Source: an uncultured Eubacterium sp. (GTDB lineage: Bacteria; Bacillota; Clostridia; Lachnospirales; Lachnospiraceae). From it: 64,000 nucleotides of DNA. Position 1 is the first letter of the stretch; each line of letters starts with the position of its first letter. Below are positions 46,649 through 50,333 of the stretch, one piece after another. The DNA is taken from contig CAMUHY010000008.1 in assembly GCA_947088865.1 (NCBI GenBank), positions 1-64,000 of the forward strand, written 5' to 3'. The notes beneath the pieces are model-generated. The model had not been told where the DNA came from. It worked only from the letters and a program-made list of their open reading frames with translations, and ran no database searches. Both the position numbers and the translations under genes were made by a program.

Positions 46649-47590
46649 TTATTCGCCATCAGAAAATAACGGCGTTGACAAATATCGGTCTCCAGAATCG
46701 GGAAGTAAGACAACAATTGTTTTACCTTCATTTTCAGGTCGTTTTGCAAGAATTGTTGCAGCCTTTAACGCCGCTCCTGAAGAAATACCTACCAAAATTC
46801 CCTCACTTACAGCAAATGCTTTTCCCTCTATAAATGCATCCTCATTTTCTATTGTAATAATTTCATCATAAATTTTTGTATTTAAAGCGTCTGGAACAAA
46901 CCCTGCACCAATTCCTTGAATTTTATGGGCGCCGGAAATCCCTTTAGAAAGCACAGGACTTGTTGCTGGTTCTACGGCAACCACCTTTATATTTGGATTT
47001 TTTTCTTTTAAATATTCTCCCACACCCGTTATTGTGCCGCCAGTGCCAACACCTGCAACAAAAATATCCACTTTTCCATCCGTTTGTTCCCATATTTCTG
47101 GCGCCGTAGTTAATTTATGTGCAGCAGGATTAGCAGGATTTACAAATTGTCCTAAAATAATGGCATTTGGAATTTCTTTTGCAAGCTGTTCTGCCTTTTC
47201 AATAGCGCCTTTCATTCCCTTTGTGCCTTCTGTAAGCACTAACTGCGCGCCATACGCCTTTAAAAGATTTCTTCTTTCCACACTCATTGTTTCTGGCAAT
47301 GTAAGTATAGCTGTATACCCCTTAGCTGCTGCGACTGCTGCAATGCCAATTCCTGTGTTTCCACTGGTAGGCTCAATAATCGTCGCCCCTTCTTTTAATA
47401 TTCCTTTTTTTTCGGCATCCTCAATCATAGCCAATGCAACACGGTCTTTTACAGAACCTGCTGGATTTAAATATTCAAGCTTTGCAAGAATCGTCGCATT
47501 TTTAATTCCTGCTTTCTTCATATAACCATTTAATTTTAATAGTGGTGTTTTTCCAATTAACTCTAATGCACTTTCTCTTATATCACTCAT
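46649..47590 (-). CDS. cysK: Cysteine synthase A
   Basis: 313 residues, full length. PLP lysine motif [16 protein letters not shown] (Lys about 48), phosphate loop [36 protein letters not shown] and [12 protein letters not shown]. Makes cysteine from O-acetylserine and sulfide. No T-box or S-box leader was seen; a monocistronic gene. Confidence 0.95.
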
Positions 47591-48071: not shown

Positions 48072-48228
48072 GTTAAGCGGATATTCGCAATCCGCTACGC
48101 TACTTGCTCAAACCCTCTAGCTACTATCGCAGCTTTTCAGTGGAAACTTATACTCCCACTGAAACAAGGAAGTCCCCTACTTATGCCTTTGCAGCATTGA
48201 AGCAGGGGACTTCCTTAATAGGGTTAAA
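48072..48228. repeat. Longest dispersed repeat, both modules
   Basis: Left module: GTTAAGCGGATATTCGCAAT then CCGCTACGCTACTTGCTC (GCGGAT/ATCCGC hairpin). Middle: CAGTGG...CCCACTG. Right module: GTCCCCT...AGGGGAC hairpin around GCCTTTGCAGCATTGAAG, then TTCCTTAATAGGGTTAAA, whose TTA is the stop codon of the TROVE-like gene. Confidence 0.65.
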
Positions 48229-49672
48229 TTGTTATACATTCATATCGTTCTGAATTAATTACACTCTGCATAAATTCAACTGGCGTATATCCAATACAGC
48301 CAAGCAACTGTTTAAATACCGTTGTAGACTGTCCACTACATAATTGAACGCCTTTTTTTGTCTTATCTGAATGAAAAATATTATTTCGACTATTGACATT
48401 CCAAAAAATAAGATTTGGTATATCATATCCTTTTGACTTGAATTTATGAAACATTTTATCATAAAAACTCCAGTCACGACTTCCGCAATAATCAATTTCC
48501 ATATCTGAAATAACAATAATGGACTTTGGCATCTCTTCTCTTGGAACATCATTATCAATGGCAATTTTAAGTACTTTTTCAAAAGCTGCACATAAATTTG
48601 TATTCATGCCCCACTCTGCCTTTGATGTATTTAAAATTTTTTGGTGTAAGGTCTCTCCCTTTAACAATTCAATCTTAGGGTCTGCACTAAATGTCATAAA
48701 CATATTGTGATATGCCCCAACATTTCTTTCCGCAAAATAAATTGCAAGACCAATAGATGTCGCCATTGGTCTGCCATACATAGAACCGGATACATCCGCC
48801 ATAACAACTGCATTGGTATTCTCTTCTATGTAATTTGGCAGCTGCCGCCACTGTGCTTCAAGAACACTGCTGTCTTCCTTCTTATAAAGAATTTTCTCCA
48901 CAATATCATATGGATAAAGTGTTGCCGAATTAATTTTTTCATCACCAGCAACAGCCTTATTGATAAACGTCGTAAATCTATCCTTATCATGCTTCATAAA
49001 GGTATTTCTGTAAATCATCATTGCCCTGCTTGGCACTTTAGAATACTTGATTTCTTTCCAACGGTTTGCCGACATAAGGCTCTCAACAACTTCAATTTGC
49101 TTTCTCATACTGCGCACAATTCGCTTAAAATTATAAACAGGATACCCCAGTTTTTGCGCTGTCAAAATACCTAATCTTCTCGTTTCCTTTGAGCTTGCAT
49201 CGGCTGTTTTTATCCACTTTGCAAGCAGTGAAACAGCATTTCCTTCGTTTAAATTTTTTAAATCTTCTTCAAACTGCTTCTTCATTGCAGACCACATATC
49301 TTCTTCAAGGGATGTTCCAATAAGACAGTATAAATCATCATAACGGCCAAAGACTCCAATTAAATCAAGATTCTTTTTTAATGCCTCAGGATGAACATCT
49401 GCCATATACTTTAATAATGTACGAAAAACTTTTCTCTCTCCTAAGCCTTCACGAATATCTCTTGCATAAAATACAATTTTAGTGGCAAATAAAGGATTTT
49501 CTTTGTACGCTTCAGCAAACAAAGACTGAATACGTGCTTCCTCTGCACCACGCAAAGAGCCGATTGTTGAAAATAAATCTAGGCAAGCATCCCCTGTGGT
49601 ATTTAGTGCTACCGCACCATTTTCTGTCCTAGTAAATGCTGCCTCTTTTCTCATCTCATCTGCAAATCCCAT
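48224..49672 (-). CDS. Ro60/TROVE- or DUF2828-like RNA-binding protein with vWA domain
   Basis: 482 residues from ATG 49672 (GGAGAG upstream). The open frame continues 97 codons upstream, but only through the tRNA-like RNAs. Residues about 1-300 are HEAT-like helices of the TROVE/DUF2828 type: NTTGDACLDLFSTIGSLRGA, FYARDIREGLGERKVF, LIGVFGRYDDLYCLI. Residues about 300-480 are a vWA domain with MIDAS DVSGSM and SDMEID. Ro60-like proteins form rings that hold misfolded or Y RNAs. The adjacent tRNA-like array fits bacterial Ro-Y RNA loci. Assignment to TROVE versus DUF2828 is uncertain. Confidence 0.8.
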   Translation of the reverse strand: MGFADEMRKEAAFTRTENGAVALNTTGDACLDLFSTIGSLRGAEEARIQSLFAEAYKENPLFATKIVFYARDIREGLGERKVFRTLLKYMADVHPEALKKNLDLIGVFGRYDDLYCLIGTSLEEDMWSAMKKQFEEDLKNLNEGNAVSLLAKWIKTADASSKETRRLGILTAQKLGYPVYNFKRIVRSMRKQIEVVESLMSANRWKEIKYSKVPSRAMMIYRNTFMKHDKDRFTTFINKAVAGDEKINSATLYPYDIVEKILYKKEDSSVLEAQWRQLPNYIEENTNAVVMADVSGSMYGRPMATSIGLAIYFAERNVGAYHNMFMTFSADPKIELLKGETLHQKILNTSKAEWGMNTNLCAAFEKVLKIAIDNDVPREEMPKSIIVISDMEIDYCGSRDWSFYDKMFHKFKSKGYDIPNLIFWNVNSRNNIFHSDKTKKGVQLCSGQSTTVFKQLLGCIGYTPVEFMQSVINSERYECITI

Positions 49673-49688
49673 AAGTTCTCTCCTTCCA

Positions 49689-49835
49689 TGACCCTGCATC
49701 GCGGATTTGAACCGCTTAAATTCATTTACTAAAAAATGTTGGTTTGACCATATCATTGCTGTAAGGGTCACATTTTTACATGACGCGTTTGGTTTTAAGA
49801 TTATGAGTCTTATCCAAAAATTGCTGAAGGCGTCA
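49689..49835 (-). ncRNA. tRNA-like RNA C (disordered, Met-like anticodon arm)
   Basis: Two parts. First (49781-49835) is a long hairpin closed by TGACGC/GCGTCA, then TTTGG/CCAAA, capped by TAAGA-CTCATAA-TCTTA, exactly a Met anticodon arm (CAT). Second (49689-49770) has acceptor-like TGACCCT/AGGGTCA ends and a T-arm GCGG-TTCAAAT-CCGC, but an abnormal D region and four extra bases before the acceptor. Both contain the CAGCAAT module. It ends 16 bp before the TROVE-like start codon. Confidence 0.6.
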
Positions 49836-49839
49836 CAAA

Positions 49840-49969
49840 GACGGCGACAGGATTTGAACCTGCAAAACCATATGGTCAGAAATTCCCCTAAAATAAAAAA
49901 TGCTGTTCGGGTCACACAAATGACCAATATTTTAATAATTTCCGCGTCTTGCCTTTCCGCCACGCCGTC
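49840..49969 (-). ncRNA. tRNA-like RNA B (Leu-like, with insert)
   Basis: 130 nt. Acceptor GACGGCG/CGCCGTC (7/7), Leu-type D-arm GCGGAAAGGCAAGACGC, T-arm GCAGG-TTCAAAT-CCTGT and a small variable arm ACCATATGGT, as in type II tRNAs. The anticodon arm (GAAATT/AATTTC) is opened by a long insert holding TAAAAT/ATTTTA, the hairpin GGTCA-TTTGTG-TGACC and CGAACAGCAT. No CCA is encoded. It starts 3 nt after RNA A. Confidence 0.75.
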
Positions 49970-49972
49970 AAT

Positions 49973-50084
49973 CGGGAAGAGAGGACTCGAACCTCCAACA
50001 TACGGCTTATCATGCTAAAATAATTGCTGTTAGTTTCACAAACATGAAACATTTTTCGTCGCTCTACCATTGAGCTACTTCCCG
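49973..50084 (-). ncRNA. tRNA-like RNA A (Ile-anticodon-like, 41-nt insert)
   Basis: 112 nt. Acceptor CGGGAAG/CTTCCCG (7/7), D-arm GCTC-AATGGTA-GAGC (4/4), T-arm GGAGG-TTCGAGT-CCTCT. A 41-nt insert (50016-50056) interrupts the anticodon stem; without it the stem is ACGGC-ATGATAA-GCCGT (5/5, U33, anticodon GAT), giving a 71-nt canonical tRNA. The insert carries hairpin GTTTCA-TGTTTG-TGAAAC and TAACAGCAAT. C1-G72 and no encoded CCA are unusual for a working tRNA. Confidence 0.8.
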
Positions 50085-50123
50085 AAATAAACTATCTATG
50101 TATCTACTCTTGCAGGCTATTTC

Positions 50124-50152
50124 AGTATAATATATTTTATAAAGTTTATCAA
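50124..50152 (-). promoter_or_regulatory. Promoter of the tRNA-like array and TROVE-like gene
   Basis: Minus strand: TTGATA (50147-50152), 17 bp, TATACT (50124-50129). The start would lie about 30 nt ahead of RNA A. No terminator is seen before the protein gene, so RNAs and mRNA probably share one transcript. Confidence 0.7.
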
Positions 50153-50333
50153 GTTTTGTTTAACATATTTTAACAAAATATATTGACAAAAATTTCGATA
50201 AAAATAAGAGTAATTTAACTATCCTAATTGACAACATTAATTTTTTGAAGTATACTTAAATAACTAAAAATAACATTATCAAAAAATATTATCACATTAA
50301 ATTTATTTACTGAAAGGAAATAAAAACAATATC

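Follow-up and report, generated by a model that had tools for sequence, protein, structure and literature searches.

Introduction

YrlA combines a Ro60-binding Y stem with a tRNA-like domain that contains a D-arm, a T-arm and an acceptor (PMC8394870, available part of the text). For Deinococcus, a tether composed of the Ro60-type protein Rsr, Y RNA and PNPase has been described (available parts of PMC8394870 and PMC7790460), and the accessible text of PMC7790460 places RtcB, Rsr and Y RNA in one Salmonella operon and suggests that YrlA, itself uncut, might act as a competitive inhibitor of an anticodon nuclease. The role of bacterial and phage Ro60 proteins and Y RNAs is largely open. Here we describe an array of four RNA elements in a 64,000-nucleotide stretch of DNA from an uncultured Eubacterium sp. 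(Lachnospiraceae; assembly GCA_947088865.1, contig CAMUHY010000008.1, positions 1 to 64,000), referred to below as the window. The array runs along the minus strand from 50084 to 49688, between a promoter-like site and a gene for a protein with a DUF2828 and a vWA domain.

By layout and gene neighbour, these four elements appear to be Y-RNA-type. A sequence-only reading of the window had proposed, without naming a strand, a Ro60-linked array of several tRNA mimics of different identity, and this proposal is supported by the predicted Ro60 fold of the protein and by the Y-type RNAs. It is possible, in our estimate, that bacterial and phage Ro60-type ribonucleoproteins (RNPs) are anticodon-display machines, in which the ring protein would present a set of RNAs that end freely in exact anticodon stem-loops, or consist of whole tRNAs, of selected tRNA species. 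Such RNAs would titrate or detect enzymes that cut tRNA, and in many genomes RtcB repair would be their neighbour.

Four RNA elements with a common stem and core

Each element of the array contains a stem adjoining an ACAGCAA-like core. The elements and their parts are:

49972-50084, minus strand: element 1, Ile(GAU)-type canonical tRNA cloverleaf with a capped hairpin within the 5′ strand of the anticodon stem (Rfam tRNA model, 49.8 bits)
50033-50050, minus strand: capped Y hairpin of element 1, GUUUCAU GUUU GUGAAAC (from sequence and from minimum-free-energy (MFE) and centroid folds; motif also in relatives)
50030-50024, minus strand: core ACAGCAA of element 1, following the capped hairpin
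50002-50015, minus strand: loop-proximal anticodon arm of element 1, GC AUGAUAA GCCGU, with the remaining 5′ strand ACG at 50059-50057
49839-49969, minus strand: element 2, type II tRNA cloverleaf resembling Leu, with a long variable arm and a capped hairpin on an extended anticodon stem (Rfam tRNA model, 31.3 bits)
49910-49925, minus strand: capped Y hairpin of element 2, GGUCAU UUGU GUGACC, with the core ACAGCA at 49906-49901
49780-49836, minus strand: element 3, simple open Y-type stem GUGACGC...GCGUCAU with core UUCAGCAA (MFE fold identical to centroid fold, z −2.5)
49796-49812, minus strand: anticodon stem-loop mimic of element 3, UAAGA CUCAUAA UCUUA (CAU), an exact natural tRNA-Met loop on a 5-bp stem (also in the fold)
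49688-49771, minus strand: element 4, open Y-type stem GUGACCC...GGGUCAU with core UUACAGCAA (sequence and MFE fold)
49701-49715, minus strand: T-arm mimic of element 4, GCGG UUCAAAU CCGC (sequence and fold)

Elements 1 and 2 had been read as two clear tRNA-like RNAs, and both indeed exceed the cut-off of the Rfam tRNA model (29 bits). They have 7-bp acceptor stems and stand 2 nt apart, and folding gives each of them an acceptor, a D-arm and a T-arm plus a hairpin followed by an unpaired stretch that contains ACAGCA. The MFE fold of element 2 draws the acceptor, D-arm, extended stem, hairpin, variable arm and T-arm. In the alignments to the tRNA model, 52 and 48 residues of the anticodon arms of elements 1 and 2, respectively, are omitted where the model has 11 and 6 positions. 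All five anticodon-stem pairs are kept in element 1, with the hairpin splitting the 5′ strand after the third (ACG / GC, loop AUGAUAA, GCCGU). The anticodon arm is not uninterrupted as in a functional tRNA: the hairpin breaks the arm of element 1 and extends that of element 2. ARAGORN called no tRNA in the window. The discriminator of element 1 is A, which suits Ile. Because CCA is encoded in only one of the genome's tRNA genes among the matches listed, elements 1 and 2 do not stand out by having no encoded CCA.

What had been taken for a disordered third tRNA-like RNA is really two separate stems, one with a CAU anticodon stem-loop (49836-49780) and one with a T-arm (49771-49688). Folding pairs the 5′ end with the 3′ end in these two elements and not in elements 1 and 2. 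In the fold of element 3, an outer stem of 7 bp is followed by a bulge, then by an inner helix, and then by a stem of 5 bp that ends in the heptanucleotide loop. The labels Ile-, Leu- and Met-like given by the earlier reading are apt, as judged from the loop AUGAUAA (GAU) of element 1, what we judge to be a Leu-type D-arm together with the long variable arm of element 2, and the loop CUCAUAA of element 3.

Conservation in related loci

The DUF2828 gene is present in 23 of 250 genomes of the family, the genome of the window included, and in 681 of 50,697 phage records. Our first set comprised 199 loci (23 family genomes, 80 genome contigs, 80 viral sequences and 16 phage records); L024, L057 and L101 repeat L002, L004 and L005 and were kept in locus counts, being removed only by the redundancy filters for elements. 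A fixed search of this set for a tRNA plus a capped hairpin returned 117 hits in sense and 0 in antisense orientation. The 96 distinct hits lie in 64 loci, 59 of them at most 1.5 kb upstream of the gene, 34 downstream and 3 elsewhere. Strict open stems number 382 in sense and 63 in antisense. Among the 186 loci with at least 700 nt of upstream sequence, 145 contain a capped element or a strict open stem upstream, as compared with 7 that contain antisense strict open stems there. The homologous loci thus do not lack the tRNA-like elements. Within the family, 20 of 23 loci have a capped or strict open element at most 1.6 kb upstream; L010, L015 and L018 have none by the same test.

The core pattern misses variants such as ACUGCAA, and all element counts are therefore lower bounds. 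An RNA of Synechococcus phage B23 that carries this variant, labelled 'tRNA-Undet' (L195 4869-4978, 110 nt) and located downstream of the DUF2828 gene, was overlooked by the pattern; by eye it is a capped element with split arm ACG/GC and loop AUUCGGA, and it scores 51.4 bits with the tRNA model. A third layout, also recognised by eye, occurs upstream in L010 (−343 and −226) and L002 (−229), where a Y stem at the acceptor end encloses a D-arm, an anticodon hairpin and a T-arm. The hairpin in L010, CCGAA UUACGGA UUCGG, is of the Arg ACG type.

Of the 96 distinct capped hits, 4 were judged spurious before anticodons and discriminators were counted, which left 92. For alignment, 8 capped hits were dropped before a redundancy filter, after which 71 were left, and 54 of these entered alignment A2 and model R1. 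The simple open stems were reduced from 349 raw to 269 by masking of tRNA genes and strict filters, and to 248 after removal of redundancy. Covariation of the paired positions, which the sequence-only reading had named as a check, is seen in part: across the 54 aligned capped elements, RNAalifold finds changes on both sides in 21 of 23 consensus pairs, but the acceptor, D, T and hairpin stems had served for selection, so this evidence is not independent. The helix beside the bulge is weakly supported (3.44 vs 3.19 ± 0.12, with 6 of 500 shuffles as high). Against model R1, element 1 scores 102.5 bits, yet it is itself among the sequences from which the model was built. When the 250 family genomes were scanned with R1, 14 of 15 hits of at least 52 bits were found at most 8 kb from a DUF2828 gene; positions were compared by eye, most hits are model-building sequences, and about 14 candidates were scored per genome. 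The reading was confined to these 15 hits, since ordinary matches of tRNA length score up to about 48 bits and, at the threshold, none of the 250 genomes is without a match. In genome G131, a capped element (L266 8091-8206; G131:C13:42090-42205) scores 98.2 bits and lies about 210 nt upstream of an NAD-salvage-type cluster with isochorismatase (nicotinamidase-like), phosphoribosyl-pyrophosphate-synthetase-type, NAPRTase/NAMPT, NAD synthase and NUDIX-NrtR domains (Pfam).

Anticodon stem-loops far above chance

Natural anticodon loops for comparison came from the tRNAs that ARAGORN called in the loci: of 553 distinct tRNAs, 526 yielded a loop, and these gave a list of 148 loops. A complete split 5-bp anticodon stem with U33 is present in 49 of the 92 capped elements, as compared with 22.9 ± 2.7 when the D-proximal parts were swapped and 4.1 ± 1.9 when the region was shuffled. 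The split stem is accompanied by an exact natural loop in 23 of the 92, against 0.16 in shuffles (maximum 3 in 300 rounds). With tRNA genes masked, an exact natural loop closes a 5-bp stem in 43 of the 248 simple open stems, as compared with 0.98 ± 1.0 in shuffles (maximum 6 in 500 rounds); the reverse-complement and reversed controls gave 4 and 1. The loop list may be contaminated by Y RNA loops that ARAGORN called tRNA, since 14 of the 553 contain ACAGCR. This result nevertheless stands, because with only those loops seen at least 3 times in tRNAs the count is 35 of 248 against 0.40, with 0 in both controls. A looser U33/R37 statistic (57 vs 51 in the reverse complement) was rejected as uninformative, the pattern being symmetric under reverse complement, and exact natural loops were used instead.

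The same excess is found in a fresh set of 126 further viral loci, collected via Listeria, Vibrio and Mycobacterium phage proteins, of which 125 were used (L270 lies on the same contig as L154 and was dropped). Procedure and loop list were left unchanged, and elements resembling those of the first set were removed. Exact loops occur here in 8 of 64 stems against 0.22 (maximum 2 in 300), with 1 in the reverse complement, 0 in the reversed sequences and 0 among 14 antisense elements. Permuted YrlA-like elements, of which both sets together contain 27 distinct ones, carry the split arm with U33 in 15 cases, against 8.8 after swapping and 0.9 after shuffling. In 37 of the 49 capped and 13 of the 15 permuted elements that have U33 and a complete stem, the last nucleotide before the break is nt 28 or 29.

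Lys-UUU (10) and Asn-GUU (8) are the leading anticodons among the 43 simple stems, and the corresponding loops CUUUUAA and CUGUUAA make up 18 and 24 of the 526 tRNA loops. The binomial values for this excess, about 1e-6 and 5e-4 (denominator 553), are too small because related phages are not independent. By a general table of discriminator bases, the discriminator fits the anticodon in only 6 of 22 capped relatives, which argues that charging is not what is conserved.

The Ro60-like protein

48224-49672, minus strand: P0001, Ro60-like protein of 482 aa with a DUF2828 helical domain and vWA; ATG at 49672, ribosome-binding-site-like GGAAGGA at 49687-49681

The AlphaFold2 model of P0001 (predicted local distance difference test 84.9, predicted template modelling score 0.80) suggests a helical-repeat ring with a vWA domain, i.e., a Ro60-like fold. 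A Foldseek search with this model returned only four Protein Data Bank (PDB) matches with E < 0.001, all of which are Ro60 (9l5y, 1yvr, 2nvo and 9nep; E 9e-8 to 9e-5, template modelling scores by query 0.52-0.56). Entry 9l5y is from Thermus phage phiLo, 2nvo is Deinococcus Rsr, 9nep is a Ro60-RNA complex released in 2026, and 1yvr we take to be Xenopus Ro60. In open-licence text, no paper on 9l5y turned up, and the literature that names DUF2828 concerns, judged by title only, plant topics.

The description of P0001 as a TROVE/DUF2828-type protein holds as regards DUF2828: this family matches with E 4e-47 in the gene that starts at 49672, and a TROVE match by sequence is lacking. TROVE (PF05731) was not found in P0001 at E 0.001, in its own genome at E 0.01, or among the 11 families listed for the 23 DUF2828 members, one of which weakly matches vWA_Ro60 (E 0.0036). 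A profile search of PDB chains also gave 0 sequence matches; P0001 is therefore not a TROVE protein by sequence. Its other matches are DUF7788 (E 3.8e-40), VWA_2 (E 5.3e-05; 24.2 bits, below the cut-off of 27) and PHROG 850, 'RNA-binding protein' (E 2.2e-133), while NCBIfam and PADLOC searches returned 0 families. TROVE-type loci occur in 4 of 149 genomes of the phylum, and a viral scan with one such locus gave 2 stretches, neither of which is a relative. The metal-ion-dependent adhesion site (MIDAS) that had been called intact is borne out by residues D293, S295, S297, T358 and D390, which are invariant in 23 of 23 aligned relatives and which we take to be the MIDAS residues.

Promoter-like site and neighbouring genes

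50124-50152, minus strand: sigma-70-type promoter-like TTGATA-17-TATACT, a consensus match at 10 of 12 positions, 39 nt upstream of element 1

The promoter proposed for the array is present as a motif at 50152-50124. Between 47500 and 50400 there are 17 such sites, as compared with 13.3 ± 3.5 in shuffles, so a single match carries little weight. A perfect consensus promoter, TTGACA-17-TATAAT (47724-47696, minus strand), precedes a gene for a pyridoxal-phosphate-dependent enzyme (46649-47590). Past the array promoter, a gene of the PD-(D/E)XK transposase family (PF12784; 50334-51212, plus strand) begins divergently.

Discussion

From the anatomy, conservation and anticodon mimicry that can be read in the sequences, and from the predicted Ro60 fold, we infer how this locus may be transcribed, bound, processed and used. 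One transcript would give rise to four small RNAs followed by the mRNA of the Ro60-like ring protein, which would hold each RNA by way of the common stem and the ACAGCAA bulge. The far end of each RNA corresponds to part or all of a tRNA, which may be the complete molecule, only the T-arm, or an anticodon stem-loop on its own. The capped Y hairpin of elements 1 and 2 is inserted in the anticodon arm and leaves normal tRNA ends, on which RNase P and RNase Z could act to trim these RNAs. The RNP may then display anticodon loops and elbows of several tRNA species to tRNA-recognising enzymes. If anticodon nucleases, whether host toxins, effectors of phage defence or enzymes of a rival, took it as decoy or bait, the real tRNAs would be spared or the attack on them sensed.

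The reading that we favour, though tentatively and short of calling it probable, is that the Ro60 RNP would present parts of tRNAs and so serve as decoy or bait for enzymes that act on tRNA, anticodon nucleases being the likeliest class. Since the anticodon loop recurs, even without the elbow, an enzyme that reads anticodon loops is indicated. A decoy or bait fits best because of these recurrent loops, the proposal of competitive inhibition cited above, the RtcB neighbours and the precedent of AriB, the PARIS nuclease that cuts tRNA-Lys and to which phages respond with altered tRNAs (available text of PMC11455837). Decoys for tRNA-cutting toxins were one of three functions suggested in the sequence-only reading, and this suggestion gains the most from exact anticodon stem-loops recurring far above chance; decoy action itself is presumed. 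Exact anticodon stem-loops on Ro60-linked stems would tie Ro60 and Y RNAs directly to tRNA-targeting conflict.

Several observations weigh against the decoy or bait reading. In element 1, the MFE fold shows another local stem at the anticodon arm and the centroid leaves the arm open. Element 2 has no natural loop in the split-stem test, which is unsuited to long variable arms. No exact natural anticodon loop is found on 205 of the 248 simple Y stems. Loops of 7 nt barely exceed those of other lengths in the fresh set (14 vs 9-13), and the capped type is absent there (0 of 125 loci), so that it belongs to a subgroup. No DUF2828 gene was detected in genome G131, which has the capped RNA ahead of the NAD-salvage-type cluster. 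The Rfam consensus of YrlA does not include the ACAGCA core, so protein binding by this core is an assumption. Finally, the available part of PMC7790460 reports that YrlA fragments were not found in Salmonella when tRNAs were cut.

The main rival to a decoy or bait, which we consider rather unlikely, is a tether: the tRNA-like end would recruit PNPase or another RNase to the Ro60 ring for degradation of structured RNA, the anticodon loops being by-products of the use of whole tRNA parts. Such a tether has its precedent in Deinococcus, and the elbow of D- and T-arm is retained in elements 1 and 2. However, bare anticodon stem-loops without an elbow occur far above chance and are needless for a tether through the elbow, and the Rfam YrlA consensus has no anticodon arm. 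Tether and decoy may both hold.

Two further explanations seem improbable to us, to a similar degree. The tRNA body could be a natural scaffold that allows the array to be cut by RNase P and RNase Z and stabilises the Ro60-binding hairpin, with no target for the tRNA end. This would suit the adjoining acceptor stems of elements 1 and 2, the normal absence of CCA and the diverse discriminators of the capped elements (A 41, T 22, C 22, G 11; n = 96), but it leaves unexplained both the anticodon loops on simple open stems and the permuted forms with a loop-closed acceptor. Alternatively, the RNAs could be sensors or substrates of RNA repair, their displayed anticodon loops being severed during an attack and rejoined by RtcB, which would signal or buffer tRNA damage. 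In 23 of 102 bacterial loci, the sequence retrieved around the DUF2828 gene includes an RtcB-like gene, in most cases immediately after it (three at 28-30% identity; L101 is a copy of L005), and RtcB is also part of the Salmonella operon. On the other hand, no RtcB match was found within the window, and RtcB was seen only once among the 80 viral loci and once among the 16 phage records of the first set, and once among the 125 loci of the second. The RtcB-flanked loci include L072-L076, L078, L081, L089, L090, L094 and L098.

That the elements are working tRNAs from which the Y hairpin is excised as an intron is very improbable. The parts of element 1 around the insert do form a normal anticodon arm with the loop AUGAUAA, and discriminator A suits Ile, but the poor fit of discriminators among relatives (6 of 22), together with simple open and permuted forms that would yield no tRNA in this way, speaks against it. 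No bacterial splicing pathway that would remove an insert of this kind is known to us. Chance or decayed tRNA genes, as might be supposed from ARAGORN calling none of the elements, are scarcely credible in view of the 117:0 strand bias, the antisense and shuffle controls and the repetition in fresh loci.

Comparison with known systems

The Deinococcus Rsr/Y RNA/PNPase complex (RYPER) likewise contains a Ro60-fold ring protein, which is among our top fold matches (2nvo), with a Y-type RNA alongside. It differs from the array locus, where the protein is DUF2828 and not TROVE by sequence and where there are several RNAs per locus. Phage loci for DUF2828 'Ro-like RNA binding protein' (PHROG 850) have the same protein family with Y-type stems nearby; the capped type occurs near the subgroup of the window and in phages of the first set, e.g., Synechococcus phage B23, and in 0 of the 125 loci from Listeria, Vibrio and Mycobacterium queries. 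The T5 tRNA-Lys that counters PARIS is another case of phage-borne anticodon arms in which Lys is prominent, as in the Y-type stems (PMC11455837, available part). Evading phage tRNAs of the T5 type are working tRNAs with altered loops, whereas the stem-loops of the array sit on Y-type stems and have natural loops.

In the broad sense of the term, the array appears to fit among the Y RNAs, with a conserved stem and a bulged core beside a Ro60-fold gene (145 of 186 loci, antisense 7 of 186), the core being unlike that of YrlA. We found no match to the YrlA model (RF02553) in 49600-50200 at E up to 10. Elements of Enterococcus phage iF6 beside its DUF2828 gene match this model with 47.8 and 34.4 bits, below the cut-off of 69. 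The model also matches across paired real tRNA genes in G000 (C21:17887-18012 and C7:111818-111975, L234 and L235; 35.1 and 31.4 bits, same cut-off), a false-positive trap at neighbouring tRNA genes that follows from YrlA being a permuted tRNA.

YrlA and elements 1 and 2 have in common a Y stem and a tRNA-like domain with D-arm, T-arm and acceptor. The Rfam consensus of YrlA runs in the order Y stem, T-arm, closed acceptor, D-arm, Y stem and has no anticodon arm. YrlA thus starts and ends in the Y stem, with the T-arm ahead of the D-arm and the acceptor closed, whereas elements 1 and 2 have the normal tRNA order, free acceptor ends and a capped Y hairpin. Anticodon loops are present in the array elements and not in the YrlA consensus. 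By sequence order, YrlA is a circular permutation of elements 1 and 2: it corresponds to a tRNA whose acceptor is closed and which opens at the anticodon instead. Capped and permuted forms both carry the ACAGCA core. We know of no description of the capped form, our literature search having covered open-licence text and the main Y RNA papers lying outside it. The capped form resembles a natural version of an engineered tRNA scaffold. Its stem joins the tRNA at the same place as that of YrlA, but its Y end is closed and its acceptor ends are free; it may thus be regarded as the unpermuted counterpart to YrlA, the circularly permuted tRNA.

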